A DNA stretch of 35,854 bases from positions 1 to 35,854 of IMG/VR virus record IMGVR_UViG_3300049596_000318; one strand, written 5' to 3'. The notes beneath the pieces are model-generated. The model made no database searches. It was given only the letters and a program-made list of their open reading frames with translations, and was not told the DNA's origin. Source of the DNA: a virus. Position numbers and translations under genes: made by a program. Below are positions 1,031 to 19,522 of the stretch, piece by piece; within the stretch, counting starts at the first letter, position 1; each line of letters begins with the position of its first letter.

Positions 1031-1231
1031 TTAAATTTGCGGCGCCACGATCTCGCGGCCGTTGATCCAAAACTGCTCCTCGATGCGCCCGTCGGCGAAG
1101 ACTAGCCGCACCGCTGGCCCGTCGAGCCGGTGAATCTTGCCGTGATGATACCACACGCACGAGCCGTCTGGGTTGGTGACTGCCGGTCCGCCCTCCGCGT
1201 GCAGCCGATTTTGTTCGTCGTAGAGCCTCAT
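1031..1231 (-). CDS. MORN/YwqK-like repeat protein
   Basis: The product is 66 residues and carries two copies of a pattern in which a short G/W/Y-rich strand is followed by a GPA turn (AEGGPAV near residues 12-18 and RLDGPAV near 35-41). This resembles the repeats of MORN-like and YwqK-type proteins. The ATG overlaps the helicase stop as ATGA, so the gene is coupled to dnaB. In bacteria such repeats occur in antitoxin-like or surface proteins; here the role is unknown. The family assignment rests on the repeat pattern only. Confidence 0.6.
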   Translation of the reverse strand: MRLYDEQNRLHAEGGPAVTNPDGSCVWYHHGKIHRLDGPAVRLVFADGRIEEQFWINGREIVAPQI

Positions 1232-2556
1232 AGTTTTTTGTGGAATGAAAAGCTGGGTTTGAAGAACTCGACCACCTTGGCGATGCCGCCCGCTCCGTTT
1301 CGGTTCTTCGCTTGGTCGATGACGACCTGCACCGTCGGCGCGTCAGGAACTGCCATCACGTCAGGGTCAGGATAGAGCAACCAGACCCGATCTGCGTCCT
1401 GCTCGATGGCGCCTGACTCGCGCAAACCCGAGAGCTTCGGCCGGCTGCCGTCCTTCTCCGCGTCCCGGTTAAGCTGCGAGAGCAGAATCACGGCCACGTT
1501 GAAATTCAGCGCCATGAGTTTTATCCGGCGCGACATGAGCGCCACCTGTTGCTCGCGTGGTGCGCGTGAGTCCTCGGCGTGCAGCAGTTGCAGGTAGTCG
1601 ATGACAACCACATGTGGCAAAGCATCCGCGGCCTTCAGCATCGCCACCCGGTCCTCGATGTCCGAGACCGACTTGACCTGACGCACCTCGAAGATGTGCA
1701 GGCGCTTCTCGTCCGCTTTCATCTTCTGCGCCGACGCAATCCACGAGGTCTTAGCCGATTGATACTCGGCCGCGGTGCAGCCTCGCACGATGCCGGCGCT
1801 TCGCCCCAGTCGTTGCTTCGCGAGCCGGCCGACCAAATCCCGCGCCTGCATTTCAAGCGAGACGATCATGGCCTTCCCGCCGCCCCGCACAACGGAATCA
1901 GCCATCTGAATAGCCAGAGCGGTCTTCCCGACGCCCGGCCTGCCTGCAATCACGCAAACCTCGCCGCCTCGGATCTTCCCGAAATACTCGTCGCAATGCG
2001 GCAATCCAGTCCCGACGACCCCGGCCTCCCTGCCGTGGATCTCGTCGTGGATGTATTCGTCCACGATGGCCGAAAGGCTCTTGGTCGCGCCTTGGATCGA
2101 AACCGCCAGCTCGGCCTCATGGATCGCTTTCCGTGCGGCCGACCAGTCCTCTTCCCATTCGCCGCCCTCCCGTGGCGTGACGGCGCCCAGAGCCTGTCCG
2201 AGCTTGGTGACGGCCTTGCGGCGCTTGTTCGCGTCGATGACTTCGATCGTCAGCTGCTTCGCAAAGATCGATGTCGGCTCAAGTGCGGCGATCTCCGCCA
2301 GTTGGCCCATGCTCTCGGCATCGATCGCCGAACCAAAGGCGCGACGGCCGACTTTGAAAACGTGCGTGTCCTTGTCCTCGGTCGCGGTCTGCACCAGAGC
2401 CTGCCAGATAATCCCGAGCATCGGGTCGGCGAAGGTCTCGGCGCTGATGCCGTGGTTGACTGCGCTTGCCACGGTCTGCACGCCGCCGGCCATGCACGCC
2501 GCGATCAGCCGGCGCTCCGCGGGCGATGGATCAGGAGCGGTCGATGATGCTTTCAT
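1228..2556 (-). CDS. dnaB: Replicative DNA helicase, DnaB family
   Basis: This 442-residue protein is a hexameric 5'-3' replicative helicase that would unwind the phage origin and drive the fork. The N-terminal helical domain spans about residues 10-100. The RecA-like motor follows, with Walker A GRPGVGKT at 205-212, an SLEM motif near 233-236, Walker B VVVIDYLQLL near 316-325, the sensor stretch ILLSQLNR at 357-364 and the typical ESGAIEQDAD segment near 380-389. A KNRNGAGG segment near the end matches the arginine-finger region of DnaB proteins. Length is normal for the family. It overlaps the 3' end of the initiator gene by 26 bases, so the pair is one expression unit, comparable to lambda O-P or to initiator-helicase pairs in other phages. 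Confidence 0.97.
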   Translation of the reverse strand: MKASSTAPDPSPAERRLIAACMAGGVQTVASAVNHGISAETFADPMLGIIWQALVQTATEDKDTHVFKVGRRAFGSAIDAESMGQLAEIAALEPTSIFAKQLTIEVIDANKRRKAVTKLGQALGAVTPREGGEWEEDWSAARKAIHEAELAVSIQGATKSLSAIVDEYIHDEIHGREAGVVGTGLPHCDEYFGKIRGGEVCVIAGRPGVGKTALAIQMADSVVRGGGKAMIVSLEMQARDLVGRLAKQRLGRSAGIVRGCTAAEYQSAKTSWIASAQKMKADEKRLHIFEVRQVKSVSDIEDRVAMLKAADALPHVVVIDYLQLLHAEDSRAPREQQVALMSRRIKLMALNFNVAVILLSQLNRDAEKDGSRPKLSGLRESGAIEQDADRVWLLYPDPDVMAVPDAPTVQVVIDQAKNRNGAGGIAKVVEFFKPSFSFHKKL

Positions 2557-3256
2557 GTGCTCGGCTTCCTTTCGCAGCGTCCATCGGTTTTTCGATGCGG
2601 TTCAGCCATGCGACGAATCGGCGCCGGCTCGGCATCTTGCGGTTTACGCCGCACCACGTTTGCATCTTCGAATACTCGCGCCGGACGTCGATGCCTGAGT
2701 ATGCGGGCGACGTCGCAAGCTCCGCGAGCCATTCCGCGTCGGTCTGTTTGGGTTGTTTCTTGGGCTTTTCGGGTTCGTCCAGCAAGTCATCGAAAAGAAT
2801 TGCAGGCGGCGGGGTCACAACCCCGCTACCTTCTTCTTCTGACTTCTGACTTATGACTTCTGACTTCTTGGGCGTTACATCTGCGTTACCTGATTCGTTA
2901 CCGGCTTTGTTACCGTGTTTCTTTCGATAGTTTTGAACGCGTAACCTTGTCTGTTCACGCGTGATAGATTCATTCATCATTCTGCGACATGTAACACTTA
3001 CATTTCCGTTACACTCTCGTATCACGTCTCCGACTTTCATTTCTTCGATCTCACTGAGCGCAGATTGAAAATCGGCTTCGGTCGCTCCCATGATTCTGGC
3101 CCAGCCTCTCGCCGGCAAAGTCGAAGTGCCCCGCGTCGATGAGGCGTGCAGCACGCAAATGATGTCGACCCACGCTCCGCGAGCGGACAGCGAAAGGACT
3201 CGGGTATCAACCAAATAGTCCGATGGGTAAAACTGAAGGAAAGGTAGCTTGCTCAT
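2531..3256 (-). CDS. DUF1376-type replication initiator with DnaT-like C-terminus
   Basis: The 241-residue product starts with a DUF1376-like winged-helix region (residues 1-100; PFLQFYPSDYLVDTRVLSLS is typical) found in phage replication initiators. Next is a low-complexity polar linker (about 112-172), then a C-terminal helical region (about 174-222, with EWLAELATSPAYSGIDV and PSRRRFVAWLNR) that resembles DnaT or helicase-loader tails. It lies directly upstream of dnaB and overlaps it. The linker DNA contains iteron-like repeats, so the gene may host the origin. The ATG sits four bases after the T-run of an intrinsic terminator with no clear ribosome-binding site, suggesting attenuation or an internal promoter. 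Confidence 0.88.
   Translation of the reverse strand: MSKLPFLQFYPSDYLVDTRVLSLSARGAWVDIICVLHASSTRGTSTLPARGWARIMGATEADFQSALSEIEEMKVGDVIRECNGNVSVTCRRMMNESITREQTRLRVQNYRKKHGNKAGNESGNADVTPKKSEVISQKSEEEGSGVVTPPPAILFDDLLDEPEKPKKQPKQTDAEWLAELATSPAYSGIDVRREYSKMQTWCGVNRKMPSRRRFVAWLNRIEKPMDAAKGSRAHESIIDRS
2839..2866. repeat. Tandem 7-bp repeat inside the initiator gene
   Basis: Four back-to-back heptamers lie at 2839-2845, 2846-2852, 2853-2859 and 2860-2866. On the plus strand they read CTGACTT, CTGACTT, ATGACTT and CTGACTT. The period of seven is not a multiple of three, so the repeat cannot be explained by a repeated peptide. It sits in the linker-coding part of the initiator gene, next to the GTTACC array. 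Confidence 0.85.
2874..2914. repeat. GTTACC iteron-like array, candidate phage origin
   Basis: Plus-strand GTTACC occurs at 2885-2890, 2897-2902 and 2909-2914, exactly 12 bp apart, and GTTACA lies at 2874-2879 at an 11-bp offset. Further related words occur at 2941-2946 and 2991-2996 (inverted) and 3008-3013, in a stretch (about 2915-3060) that is visibly richer in A/T than its surroundings. Iterons plus an AT-rich flank inside the initiator gene match the arrangement of lambda ori within gene O. Origin function is inferred. Confidence 0.6.
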
Positions 3257-3326
3257 AAATAAAAAAACCCGACCAGCCTTCGCGGTGAAAATTGGCGCAC
3301 GAAACGCCTCGCGAAAACTGGCCGGG
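3257..3326 (-). terminator. Long intrinsic terminator or attenuator before the initiator gene
   Basis: On the minus strand CCCGGCCAG (3326-3318) pairs with CTGGTCGGG (3276-3268) with one G-U pair. Inside it TTCGCG (315-310 of the 3,000s) pairs with CGCGAA (284-279), and a GGCG/CGCC pair closes the inner loop. Seven T residues follow (3267-3261). Four bases later the initiator ATG begins. It would end the recombination transcript after rusA and could also act as a leader attenuator for the initiator-helicase genes. Confidence 0.8.
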
Positions 3327-3401: not shown

Positions 3402-3863
3402 TCAAGCCCCGCTCGGCTCAAATCGCTCCACGCTGAGGTAAACGCCGATGCGCGCGTCGGTGATCGCCCAGAACTTGTGCACGCTTAACTTCGCCACCTG
3501 CGAGTCGTCCCGCCAGATCCGCCCGCCGCGCGTGATGCGGTCGAGCACGAGCTTCGCCAAGTTGTCAGCGTCCGGCTTGGAGACGTGGCAGACCGGCGCG
3601 CTCGCCTTCACGTGTCCGCCCTTGCCATAATGCGACTTCGGCCGGCGGAAGAAGAACGTTAGCTTGCACTCGAACGCTCCGACCGGATCGAGTGCCCCCG
3701 CCGCCGCCTTTAGCTCGCGCTCGATCCCGAGGTCTACCGCCCGCTTCCACGCGTCTGCCACGTCGCTGTCATACATCCGCGCGACGTGTTTCGCGCCCAT
3801 CTTGCGGGCGAAGGCTCGCGCCCTCGGCTGTCCCTTCGGGTCGCCGAAAATGAAGGTGTTCAT
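3402..3863 (-). CDS. rusA: RusA-family Holliday junction resolvase
   Basis: The 153-residue product matches RusA, a homodimeric Mg-dependent endonuclease that cuts four-way DNA junctions. The diagnostic KPDADNL motif is at residues 96-102 (acidic residues D98 and D100), followed by an IWRDDSQVA motif around 116-124 carrying the third acidic position. An FRRPKSHYG segment near 72-80 is typical of the basic DNA-binding strand. Length is close to the family norm of about 120-150. The ATG overlaps the preceding gene's stop (ATGA). It lies in the recombination block and would resolve branched intermediates before packaging. Confidence 0.93.
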   Translation of the reverse strand: MNTFIFGDPKGQPRARAFARKMGAKHVARMYDSDVADAWKRAVDLGIERELKAAAGALDPVGAFECKLTFFFRRPKSHYGKGGHVKASAPVCHVSKPDADNLAKLVLDRITRGGRIWRDDSQVAKLSVHKFWAITDARIGVYLSVERFEPSGA

Positions 3864-6036: not shown

Positions 6037-6680
6037 TAGTTGTTGATTGCGTCGCTCAGTCCGCCCGCGAGCTTGTCGGCAAGCGGGGTGACGTTGATCT
6101 CTGCGGGAATGTCCCGCGCTTCCTCGGCCGTGCGCAGTCCCTTGAGAATGTCGCCGAACTGGTCGCGGAGGAGGAAACCGCGTGCCCGGAATTTGCACAT
6201 CCGCTTGGGATAGTCGGTCCATGGCCCGGCCTTGCCCCAGAGCTTCGCTGCCTTGGCGTCGCCCACTGTAAAGGTTTCCGAGGCGGCATCGAATCCGCGG
6301 CGCTGCACCGTCACGGTGAAGCCGTGCGAATCCTTGCCTGGCTCGCCGATCTCGGTCTCCTTGTAGCTCACGAGCTGACCGCTGGAGCGAACCAGAGCAA
6401 GCGCCGCGTCGCCGTAGATCGCCGGGCGACCGTTAATCACGGCCATGTTTTGGAGCGCCGCCATCGGCGTCAGCCCGATCTCAAGACCGAACTGAATCGC
6501 TATCATGACGCTCTCAGGCTTCTCCATGCCCTTCGGCGCCCAGCCGCTCGCGACTACCGCCCGCGCGAAGCGGAAAGCCTCGTCGATGCTCTGCAATTGC
6601 ACGCCGTGTTGGCCGAACTGAATCGGTGCTTTCGTAGCGGTCTCTGCGACCGCGATCTCTGATTTAACGTTAGTATCCAT
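6036..6680 (-). CDS. RecT-like single-strand annealing protein
   Basis: The 214-residue product resembles the RecT-type phage recombinases. It has the early pattern FARAVVASGWAPKGMEKPES (residues 38-57), then IAIQFGLEIGLTPMAALQNM (61-80) and INGRPAIYGDAALALV (82-97), which is characteristic of the group, and a central MCKFRARGFLLRDQFGD stretch near 161-177. It would coat single-stranded DNA made by the nearby exonuclease and anneal homologous strands. Length is a little short for RecT but usual for this phage subgroup. The leader upstream of the ATG is A/C-rich rather than Shine-Dalgarno. Confidence 0.88.
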   Translation of the reverse strand: MDTNVKSEIAVAETATKAPIQFGQHGVQLQSIDEAFRFARAVVASGWAPKGMEKPESVMIAIQFGLEIGLTPMAALQNMAVINGRPAIYGDAALALVRSSGQLVSYKETEIGEPGKDSHGFTVTVQRRGFDAASETFTVGDAKAAKLWGKAGPWTDYPKRMCKFRARGFLLRDQFGDILKGLRTAEEARDIPAEINVTPLADKLAGGLSDAINN

Positions 6681-17501: not shown

Positions 17502-18140
17502 TCAAACCGCGGGAAAGTGCATCGCGTGCAGCGCCGGCCGGTTCGCTTTGAGCCACGGCTCGGCATCGGCCATGCACTTGGCCGCATCGTTGCCGCACGT
17601 CTGAGAGCCGACGTGATGCACGTAGGCCCGGGAAACGAAGTGCCGGCGCTTCATGTCGGCGCATTGCACGTCGTCGGAAAACCAGTTGATCGGCGGGAAA
17701 TCGACCCACGCGTCGCGGTGAATCCATGCGCAAATCGGCGCGATGACCGGCGTCTCGACGATGCTGCGCTCCGACTCGAAACGCAGAAAGTCCAAGCGCC
17801 CGGTGCCGCATCGGATGTTCTGTGCCCCGCGTGCGTAGTCGGACCGCGCTGCGACGTAGCCGACGTTATCGCAATGTTCTTTGATCAGTTGCACGTCCGC
17901 GAGAAGATCGCGCCACGTCGTCGGCGTGAAAACGATGTCGTCGTTGCAGACGACGATCTGGTCGTGCTCCTTGAAAGCGATTCCTGCTGCGTGGTTGTAG
18001 GCTTCGCCGAACGTCGCCCCGACGCCGTGGAAATAGTAGGTGCGGACCTCCCGCGGCACGTAGGCCTTCACCGAAGCCTTGAGCACGTCGAGACACCTTG
18101 CGTTGGTCGTGCAGACGACGATTGCCGGTTCGGGAATCAT
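17502..18140 (-). CDS. Glycosyltransferase-like protein, GT2 type
   Basis: The 212-residue product starts with a Rossmann-like strand (AIVVCTTNARCLDVLKAS) and has the DXD-like motif CNDDIVF (about 65-71) that binds the nucleotide sugar through a metal. Near residue 176 is YVHHVGSQT, a typical late GT2 segment. It lacks membrane helices, so it is probably cytoplasmic and acts on proteins or nucleotide sugars during assembly. The ATG overlaps the preceding glycosyltransferase gene's stop (ATGA). Three such genes sit among the virion genes; the acceptor is unknown. It could instead be a structural relative without activity. Confidence 0.8.
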   Translation of the reverse strand: MIPEPAIVVCTTNARCLDVLKASVKAYVPREVRTYYFHGVGATFGEAYNHAAGIAFKEHDQIVVCNDDIVFTPTTWRDLLADVQLIKEHCDNVGYVAARSDYARGAQNIRCGTGRLDFLRFESERSIVETPVIAPICAWIHRDAWVDFPPINWFSDDVQCADMKRRHFVSRAYVHHVGSQTCGNDAAKCMADAEPWLKANRPALHAMHFPAV

Positions 18141-19522
18141 GCCTTTTTTGCTCCCAGAATTTGCTCGATGTTCTCGGCGTCAATCAGCGTGCAGCCGCTC
18201 GCCAAGATTCGTTCATCCCAGCCGTGCGGCGCCACCATGCCATCCTCAGCGTTGATCTGAATCACGCCCGGCTCGGATGCGCTCGGCTCGCCTACGTCGT
18301 GCAGGAACTGCTTCGCCATCCCCATCGTCTCGGCGTCGTCGGCGCGCACAAGAAAGCGGTGCTCGATCCGTTCCGGCTGCGCCGCCGTTGAGAGCCACGC
18401 GTCGCGGAAGGAAACGGATTTGGTGGAGTTGCCGAGCGTCTTTTGCGTGAGCCGGATCTTCGGTGCGGTGTGCTTGTGAAACACGAGCTGCATCGCAGCC
18501 GCGTCGTCGAGTTGGCCCGCGAGACGGAAAGCACGCGCCGCGAGGTCGTGCCCGGCCCAGCCATACCACTTGACCTCGTGAGTCCACGGCCGGTCCTTCT
18601 CGGTAGGCTCGGGAAGGCTCAGCATCCGAGACGCCCAGAAGCTCGCCCGCTTGCCGTCGTTGCGCTCGAAGCTGAGCAGAATGACCGAGGCGATGGCCTC
18701 GCGGCACCACGGGAAGACGCCGTGCGCCGACATCGCGAACTGGATCGCCTCGCGTCGGGAAGCGACGAGTCGCGCAAGGTTGAGCTGCACCTCGTAACGG
18801 AAACTGTCGTCGAGGTTCGGGAACGAAAGCGCGATCCGGCCGAACTGCTCCGCCGCCGTCTTGTTGCCGGCGCAATAGTGCTCTTGGTGGATATAAAAAT
18901 ACTGGGTCGCAGACTCGGCGACGCTGCGCCCGAGGATCGCCAAGTTTCGTTTGCGGTTGTCCTGTTTAATCGCAATCGGCTGATGATGCCAGACCGGCGT
19001 CGCCCAGTCGAAATGCCGGTCGTTCGGAAGTAGTAGCAGGTTCTCATGCACGTCGTGGTGCCAGACGCGCCCGCTCGCAAATGCGCTGCGCCGCACGATC
19101 CGCTCCCGGTGAAGCTTCTTGCCGGTGCCGCGCACGTCGTAAGGACAACGAACCATGAGCACGTCGTCCGAGAGTTCCGCGAGCCGGTCCCGCAGCTTCT
19201 CGGCCTCCGCAATCACGTCGTCGCAGTCGGCCCAAATTAGCCAGTCGCCGCACGCCTGCGCGAACGCTTGGTTGCGTGCGCGGGCGAACGAATCGACGTG
19301 CTTCCACGCCTGCGCCGTGGCGCCGTTCTTGTATTCGGAGAAGATGAATCCGACCGAGTGATGCAAACACCAGTCGCGCACGATCTGCTCGGTGCTGTCC
19401 GGTTCCTGCGAGCCGATGGCGCGGACGAGTGAGACCTCGTCAATCACGCCGTCGAAGCTGTCGAGCATCGCGCCAATTTGTGCCGCCTCGTTGCCTGCGA
19501 TAACGCAAAGGGAAAGTATCAT
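18137..19522 (-). CDS. Large GT2-family glycosyltransferase
   Basis: The 461-residue product begins MILSLCVIAGNEAAQIGAML, a typical GT2 start. It has the WADCDDV motif (about 98-104) corresponding to the DXD metal/sugar site, and HHDVHENLLL near 173-182, a common GT2 acceptor-side segment. From about residue 215 it is helical and repeat-like, perhaps TPR-type helices for partner binding. The leader is A/C-rich (CACACAACGACGACCATG). It follows the HNH gene's terminator and is coupled to a second glycosyltransferase. It would modify a virion or host glycan; the substrate is unknown. Confidence 0.85.
   Translation of the reverse strand: MILSLCVIAGNEAAQIGAMLDSFDGVIDEVSLVRAIGSQEPDSTEQIVRDWCLHHSVGFIFSEYKNGATAQAWKHVDSFARARNQAFAQACGDWLIWADCDDVIAEAEKLRDRLAELSDDVLMVRCPYDVRGTGKKLHRERIVRRSAFASGRVWHHDVHENLLLLPNDRHFDWATPVWHHQPIAIKQDNRKRNLAILGRSVAESATQYFYIHQEHYCAGNKTAAEQFGRIALSFPNLDDSFRYEVQLNLARLVASRREAIQFAMSAHGVFPWCREAIASVILLSFERNDGKRASFWASRMLSLPEPTEKDRPWTHEVKWYGWAGHDLAARAFRLAGQLDDAAAMQLVFHKHTAPKIRLTQKTLGNSTKSVSFRDAWLSTAAQPERIEHRFLVRADDAETMGMAKQFLHDVGEPSASEPGVIQINAEDGMVAPHGWDERILASGCTLIDAENIEQILGAKKA

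Follow-up and report, generated by a model that had tools for sequence, protein, structure and literature searches.

The DNA analysed here (the window, which is the whole stretch of 35,854 bases of an IMG/VR virus record) is highly likely to hold a lambda-O-like intragenic replication origin, located within a minus-strand gene whose 241-aa product would be the phage initiator (Table 1). An array of short GTAAC cores, followed by a tandem tract, was found in the segment of this gene that encodes the linker of the protein. The array, selection acting on it at the level of the DNA, its coupling to the N-terminal domain, the exchange of domain and repeats as a cassette and the predicted fold of the protein were all computed in this work. 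As the DNA-binding half of the gene and the matching repeats move together between related phages, this is very likely the point at which replication starts. A preliminary description of the window had proposed an origin at this location by comparison with lambda gene O, and sequence comparisons lend support to that reading through cassette exchange, a nearly diagonal table of motifs against modules, conservation of the cores and their concerted change.

Genome setting and the putative initiator

Genes of the window with structural roles include those for terminase, portal, major head, tape-measure and tail-fibre proteins. Among these is a gene (18137-19522) that matches a PHROG beta-1,4-glycosyltransferase family (8.4e-15) and whose product, judging from this match, possibly modifies the virion or host surface. 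The contig opens with a run of eight C (positions 1-8), possibly an assembly edge. A replication and recombination block is located on the minus strand near the left end of the window, and contains genes for RusA and for exonuclease VIII-like and RecT-like proteins along with the initiator gene, with dnaB being the next gene directly downstream of the latter.

The 241-aa protein is laid out as a DUF1376-like N-terminal domain, a disordered linker and a helical C-terminal domain. It matches the 'primosomal protein' family PHROG 9327 (E=1.5e-5). The label DUF1376 (PF07120), given to it in the preliminary description, is weak for this protein alone (E=0.045; 14.6 bits against a curated Pfam cut-off of 30.1) and rests on its homologues, 11 of the 21 aligned with it matching the domain (E<=0.01). 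A Pfam scan of the protein to E=10 returned the weak DUF1376 match and two chance-level matches only, with no match to the lambda O family or to the RepA_N domain, and a search of solved structures by sequence gave no matches.

AlphaFold2 predicts a winged-helix fold for the N-terminal domain (block-mean pLDDT of 85-96 over residues 11-110), disorder in the linker (about residues 126-159) and a three-helix module towards the C-terminus. In Foldseek, the model had its top matches among DNA-binding proteins of the winged-helix type, plasmid RepA and a Rep-DUE complex being two of them, with no match below E=1e-3. The C-terminal three-helix module is retained when the N-terminal cassette is swapped, and it is probably the module that would contact the helicase.

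Table 1. Coordinates of the candidate origin and of neighbouring features in the window
Feature	Position	Strand	Basis or remark
DnaB-type replicative helicase gene	1228-2556	-	Pfam DnaB_C 2.6e-49; PHROG 19 2.9e-61
Putative replication initiator gene, 241 aa	2531-3256	-	ORF; PHROG 9327; homologues match DUF1376
C-terminal three-helix module, residues 173-222	2591-2740	-	AlphaFold2; common to cassette types A, B and C
Exchangeable candidate origin cassette (N-terminal domain, iteron array and tandem tract)	2694-3256	-	BLASTN
Purine-rich tandem tract, candidate DNA-unwinding tract	2820-2870	-	Holds the 7-bp repeats (2836-2868)
Main array of likely iterons, GTAAC cores	2909-2913, 2897-2901, 2885-2889, 2874-2878 (span 2874-2913)	-	
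N-terminal winged-helix domain, residues 1-115	2912-3256	-	AlphaFold2, Foldseek; predicted origin-binding domain
Inverted core copy	2941-2945	+	
Inverted core copy	2991-2995	+	
Outlying GTAAC copy	3008-3012	-	
RusA gene	3402-3863	-	In replication and recombination block

The GTAAC array

The linker segment reads GGTAAC-6-GGTAAC-6-GGTAAC-5-TGTAAC on the sense (minus) strand, followed by the tract AAGAAGTCAGAAGTCATAAGTCAGAAGTCAGAAG, with the array being situated between the DNA-binding and C-terminal domains of the initiator gene. Three of the cores (2909, 2897 and 2885; GTTACC on the plus strand) are spaced at exactly 12 bp, as had been described, and a fourth at 2874 (GTTAC on the plus strand), which had been overlooked, lies 11 bp from its neighbour in a different reading frame. 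The extra copies mentioned in the same description were recovered at 2941 and 2991 (inverted) and at 3008. The initiator gene thus holds seven of the 31 GTAAC/GTTAC sites of the window in 2% of its length. In shuffles that preserve the protein, resampled codons gave seven cores in none of 20,000 trials and the observed spacing with a probability of 1e-4, while P was 0.00095 for the number of cores and 0.00075 for their spacing when the gene's own codons were permuted. An A/T-richer flank was also borne out, since linker positions 2870-3020 are 56% A+T compared to a window mean of 40%, and the best 100-bp stretch of the linker ranks in the top 0.9% of the window for A+T.

It had been considered that the 12-bp array could be protein-driven. 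Comparison with relatives establishes instead, at the level of sequence, that it is DNA-driven. Relative to L012, a homologue with a 77% identical N-terminal domain, 34 of the 35 bases of the seven GTAAC cores are kept, compared to 74% in the rest of the region and 23 of 40 (58%) in the non-core linker. The positions of the cores are the same in L012-L016 although the amino acids differ, with Gly115, Gly119 and Gly123 being replaced by Arg, Cys or Ser through first-base changes that leave the GT and the core unchanged, and one core being out of frame. Conservation at synonymous positions, which the preliminary description had singled out, is also evident: third positions of codons unchanged with respect to L012 are kept in 7/7 cases in the cores against 45/86 elsewhere. 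The array is likely an iteron set, to which the initiator would bind.

A more distant homologue (L245, 42% identity) carries GTGAC-type units with matching 12/12/11 spacing. It was the sole relative of the N-terminal domain obtained from a scan of a genome collection, where it is found on a contig of a 'Ca. Kuenenia stuttgartiensis' MAG (DYIT01000016.1), which we take to be either prophage DNA or phage DNA that was misbinned.

Another DUF1376 subfamily, represented by 26 distinct linkers, possesses the repeat variants GTAACG, GTCACG, GTAACC, GTAATG and GAAACG. Comparable copies agree with each other within most phages of this subfamily despite occurring in two reading frames, and the base changes are silent in one frame and amino-acid-changing in the other. 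Re-pairing of the two frames across phages gave P=1.4e-4 for nine distinct combinations, which are not fully independent by descent and which involve several separate shifts. Unit R3, which differs consistently, was excluded from this test of concertedness, as were L301-L309 and L324, which have other or no recognisable arrays. Identical letter changes in two frames are the hallmark of binding sites that evolve as a set.

A DNA-first search for four GTAAC copies spaced by 12 bp was rejected as unspecific, because tail-fibre peptide repeats yield identical DNA. The irregular, mixed-frame GTAAC arrays are those that fall in initiators.

The tandem tract

The tandem 7-bp repeats of the preliminary description were found at 2836-2868 in 4.7 copies with 92% matches (consensus CTTCTGA on the plus strand, TCAGAAG in the sense direction), and with a TRF score of 59 they are the top tandem repeat of the window. 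Their 7-bp periodicity exceeds that obtained on permutation of the gene's own codons (P=5e-5). The repeats are not specific, however, as three copies of GAAGTCA occur in 51 viral contigs, where about 11 distinct initiator linkers are represented and the rest are unrelated genes or intergenic DNA. Given its presence in many unrelated contexts, the 7-bp repeat was rejected as a specific binding site, and the tract is read as an analogue of the lambda A+T region. The repeat would then be a common microsatellite that probably has a role as a strand-asymmetric unwinding tract. The heptamer GAAGTCA (TCAGAAG) was also noted as a recurrent microsatellite of uncultured viruses, present in structural genes, intergenic DNA and initiators (L074-L124).

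For purine/pyrimidine strand asymmetry, the tract ranks among the top 0.06% of 42-bp windows; its A+T content is only about 50%, though it is strand-asymmetric and tandem. Across 59 initiators, some of which had been located by their tract or by their GTAAC array, the best tandem tract of 4-8 bp falls in nt 300-520 in 57 cases (about 15 expected), and the dnaB-anchored, protein-anchored and cultured sets among them were chosen independently of tract and array. These tracts mostly exceed codon permutation, with units that vary among initiators (GAAGTCA, CAGAAGC, GGATAA, GGAAA, TCATCT, GAAGAGA). Purine asymmetry by itself reached no significance for most genes under codon permutation, and tandem repetition is the better measure.

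Exchange of the N-terminal domain together with its repeats

In L019, L021, L024 and L028, the DNA of both flanks is 82-94% identical to the window, with no BLASTN match between about 2694 and 3252. In L021, L024 and L028 homology ends at ~3252-3261 and restarts at ~2692-2693, the break running from the ATG to just past the tandem tract. The upstream break occurs slightly before the gene in L019 and L046, and in other types the whole gene is replaced. Different N-terminal domains are present in relatives whose helicases are 90-99% identical, and several of the modules exchanged in this way have PHROG matches to 'replication initiation' or 'primosomal' families.

Each cassette type has an array of its own. 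It is GTAAC at 12/11 bp in the window, AGCATAACCCA at 11 bp in type B, ACGCGTG at 11 bp in type C, GGTTCAACCGC at 11 bp in type D, GGGTATCCAAA at 11 bp in a further cassette and others, so that the arrays of most other types have an 11-bp period, which is not a multiple of 3. A table of motifs by module is nearly diagonal, with motifs nearly confined to their own module type. Its exceptions are stray single copies of ACGCGT or GTAAC, two ACGCGT in the window gene and three GTAAC in L054, while L064 is one module using GTTAC independently. From this table and from the joint exchange, the repeats are specific to their cognate N-terminal domain. In a chain test, 3-6 copies were recovered in most initiators and only two in L056; the best chain in L042, L045 and L047 was the tandem tract, and dnaB control genes gave no chain of more than two copies. 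The arrays of the L042, L045, L047 and L056 cassettes are palindromic, short or masked by a simple tract.

Two further observations were made on these modules. The initiator module of L064 (5349-5600; MAGDWIKVEENMPDKPEV) contains 12 GTAAC/GTTAC cores, many of them as palindromic pairs, in two clusters. The C-terminal modules are also exchanged, at least four unrelated ones being identified (window 2531-3256; L011-L017, L030, L054-L069), and N-terminal cassette and C-terminal module therefore combine freely.

We infer binding, melting, helicase recruitment and actual initiation at the linker from these data. The N-terminal winged-helix domain would bind GTAAC cores placed approximately one helical turn apart in its own gene, the bound array would distort the DNA and thereby open the strand-asymmetric tandem repeats beside it, and the helical module at the C-terminus would recruit DnaB helicase, the product of the following gene. 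Because the predicted binding domain, its sites and the unwinding tract adjoin one another, phages can trade them as a single self-contained unit, and the window very probably carries one example of this widespread kind of cassette.

Cultured relatives and GC skew

A DUF1376-type gene with linker repeats and a tandem tract is present in the cultured Pseudanabaena phage Pam1 and in the cultured phages Pkon1, PfDIW6, AH02, Lbo-JY16 and IME-Ap7. In the Pseudomonas phages PfDIW6 and AH02, this gene is located between genes of the cII/Cro region and a DnaC-like loader gene, which is the position of O-P in lambda.

GC skew, named in the preliminary description as a means of checking the origin, gave a mixed result. 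The cumulative minimum of the window is at 6605 and not at ~2900, 3.7 kb from the linker, and this speaks in part against the origin, since a minimum elsewhere had been named as a refuting result. In the circular genome of Paracoccus phage Pkon1, 139 bp separate the minimum from the midpoint of the initiator gene, and over 17 genomes, which are not fully independent and are mostly linear contigs handled as circles, it lies within 5.2 kb of the initiator in 14 and at a distance of more than 12 kb in the other three (KS P=3e-5 for clustering near the initiator gene). Skew is weak support, because linear contigs were handled as circles and gene orientation switches nearby.

Alternative explanations

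The GTAAC sites could be bound by the initiator and yet act as an operator for autoregulation or as another regulatory site, with replication starting elsewhere. The skew minimum of the window at 6605 would fit this, and binding sites by themselves do not make an origin. The sites are, however, ~250-380 nt into the coding region and not at the start codon, a strand-asymmetric tandem tract accompanies them in the manner of lambda (PMC5043065), and the skew minimum clusters near the initiator over the 17 genomes, with their incomplete independence and the nearby orientation switches, which makes a purely regulatory role improbable.

It is highly improbable that the repeats arose as a by-product when Gly-Asn-x-x coding and replication slippage shaped a disordered linker of low complexity, with no role as DNA. 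Disorder is indeed predicted for the linker, tail-fibre peptide repeats (VTGN, VTPP) commonly contain GTAAC at 12-bp spacing and the 7-bp unit is found in unrelated genes, but a by-product is difficult to reconcile with core letters that are kept while amino acids vary, with an out-of-frame core, with identical base changes in copies where the coding consequences are opposite, with an array beyond protein-preserving shuffles and with the 11-bp period of most other arrays. Even less credence is given to the linker repeats as recombination boundaries that promote module exchange and are not an origin. Cassette exchange does stop near the linker, but exchanging partners should then share the boundary, whereas the arrays differ by cassette type and travel with the N-terminal domain, and the DNA common to partners is outside the arrays.

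Comparison with known origins and implications

Lambda and Stx phages carry 4-6 iterons and an A+T tract midway along gene O (PMC7466680, PMC5043065), the A+T region of lambda having nearly all purines on one strand (PMC5043065). The proposed origin of the window resembles that of lambda in separating the DNA-binding part of the initiator gene from the C-terminal part, and in consisting of a small iteron array followed by a strand-asymmetric tract (PMC7466680, PMC5043065), here of only about 50% A+T. It differs in its 5-6-bp cores at 11-12 bp, which are shorter and more tightly spaced than the 19-bp inverted repeats that O dimers bind in lambda, in having dnaB and not a P-type loader beside the initiator, and in a protein that has no Pfam match to the O-type initiator family.

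In the RepA_N plasmid pSK41, the four Rep boxes bound by a winged-helix N-terminal domain lie within rep itself (PMC5703833). In pSK41 and pPR9 the origin encodes the linker and the C-terminal domain contacts the replisome, and pPR9 is a natural swap of ~500 bp, joining a phage-like N-terminal domain and origin to the same C-terminal domain, which replicates (PMC5703833). The winged-helix N-terminal domain, the candidate sites inside the initiator gene and the natural replacement of N-terminal domain and probable origin are features that the window shares with these; unlike it, these are plasmids, their C-terminal domain binds DnaG primase, and the window protein is without a RepA_N match. An origin within the rep gene is also known in several other plasmids (PMC3155836). 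The window origin would thus work like those of lambda and the RepA_N plasmids, although its initiator belongs to neither family at the sequence level. A similar genomic setting is found for DUF1376 proteins, of which Rac prophage YdaU is one; it is annotated as 'primosomal protein I' and is matched by a DUF1376-type initiator. An origin or binding site for DUF1376 was not found in the literature searched, mostly without subscription papers, which is not proof of novelty.

We consider it reasonably probable that such origins are portable cassettes, in which a winged-helix domain (DUF1376 or one of several unrelated N-terminal domains), iterons spaced by a helical turn and a tandem unwinding tract are all encoded by one stretch and swapped as a unit onto shared C-terminal domains and helicases. 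If so, origin specificity would evolve via cassette exchange and concerted change of all iterons, DUF1376 would be an origin-binding domain, and the origins of many uncultured phages would be readable from sequence alone. This offers a candidate function for a widespread phage domain of unknown function, and places a probable origin in a phage without a cultured host. The corresponding sequence rule asks for an array specific to the module, mostly with 11-12-bp spacing, and for a strand-asymmetric tandem tract in the linker of the initiator, and it is valid in nearly all relatives examined, including the six cultured phages. Natural cassette swaps and concerted iteron changes also make the long-standing question of initiator-origin co-evolution directly testable.

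GTAAC arrays were also identified in the linkers of replication-protein families seemingly unrelated to DUF1376 (L129, L160, L173, L186, L211 and L225), which suggests repeated adoption of the same short motif.
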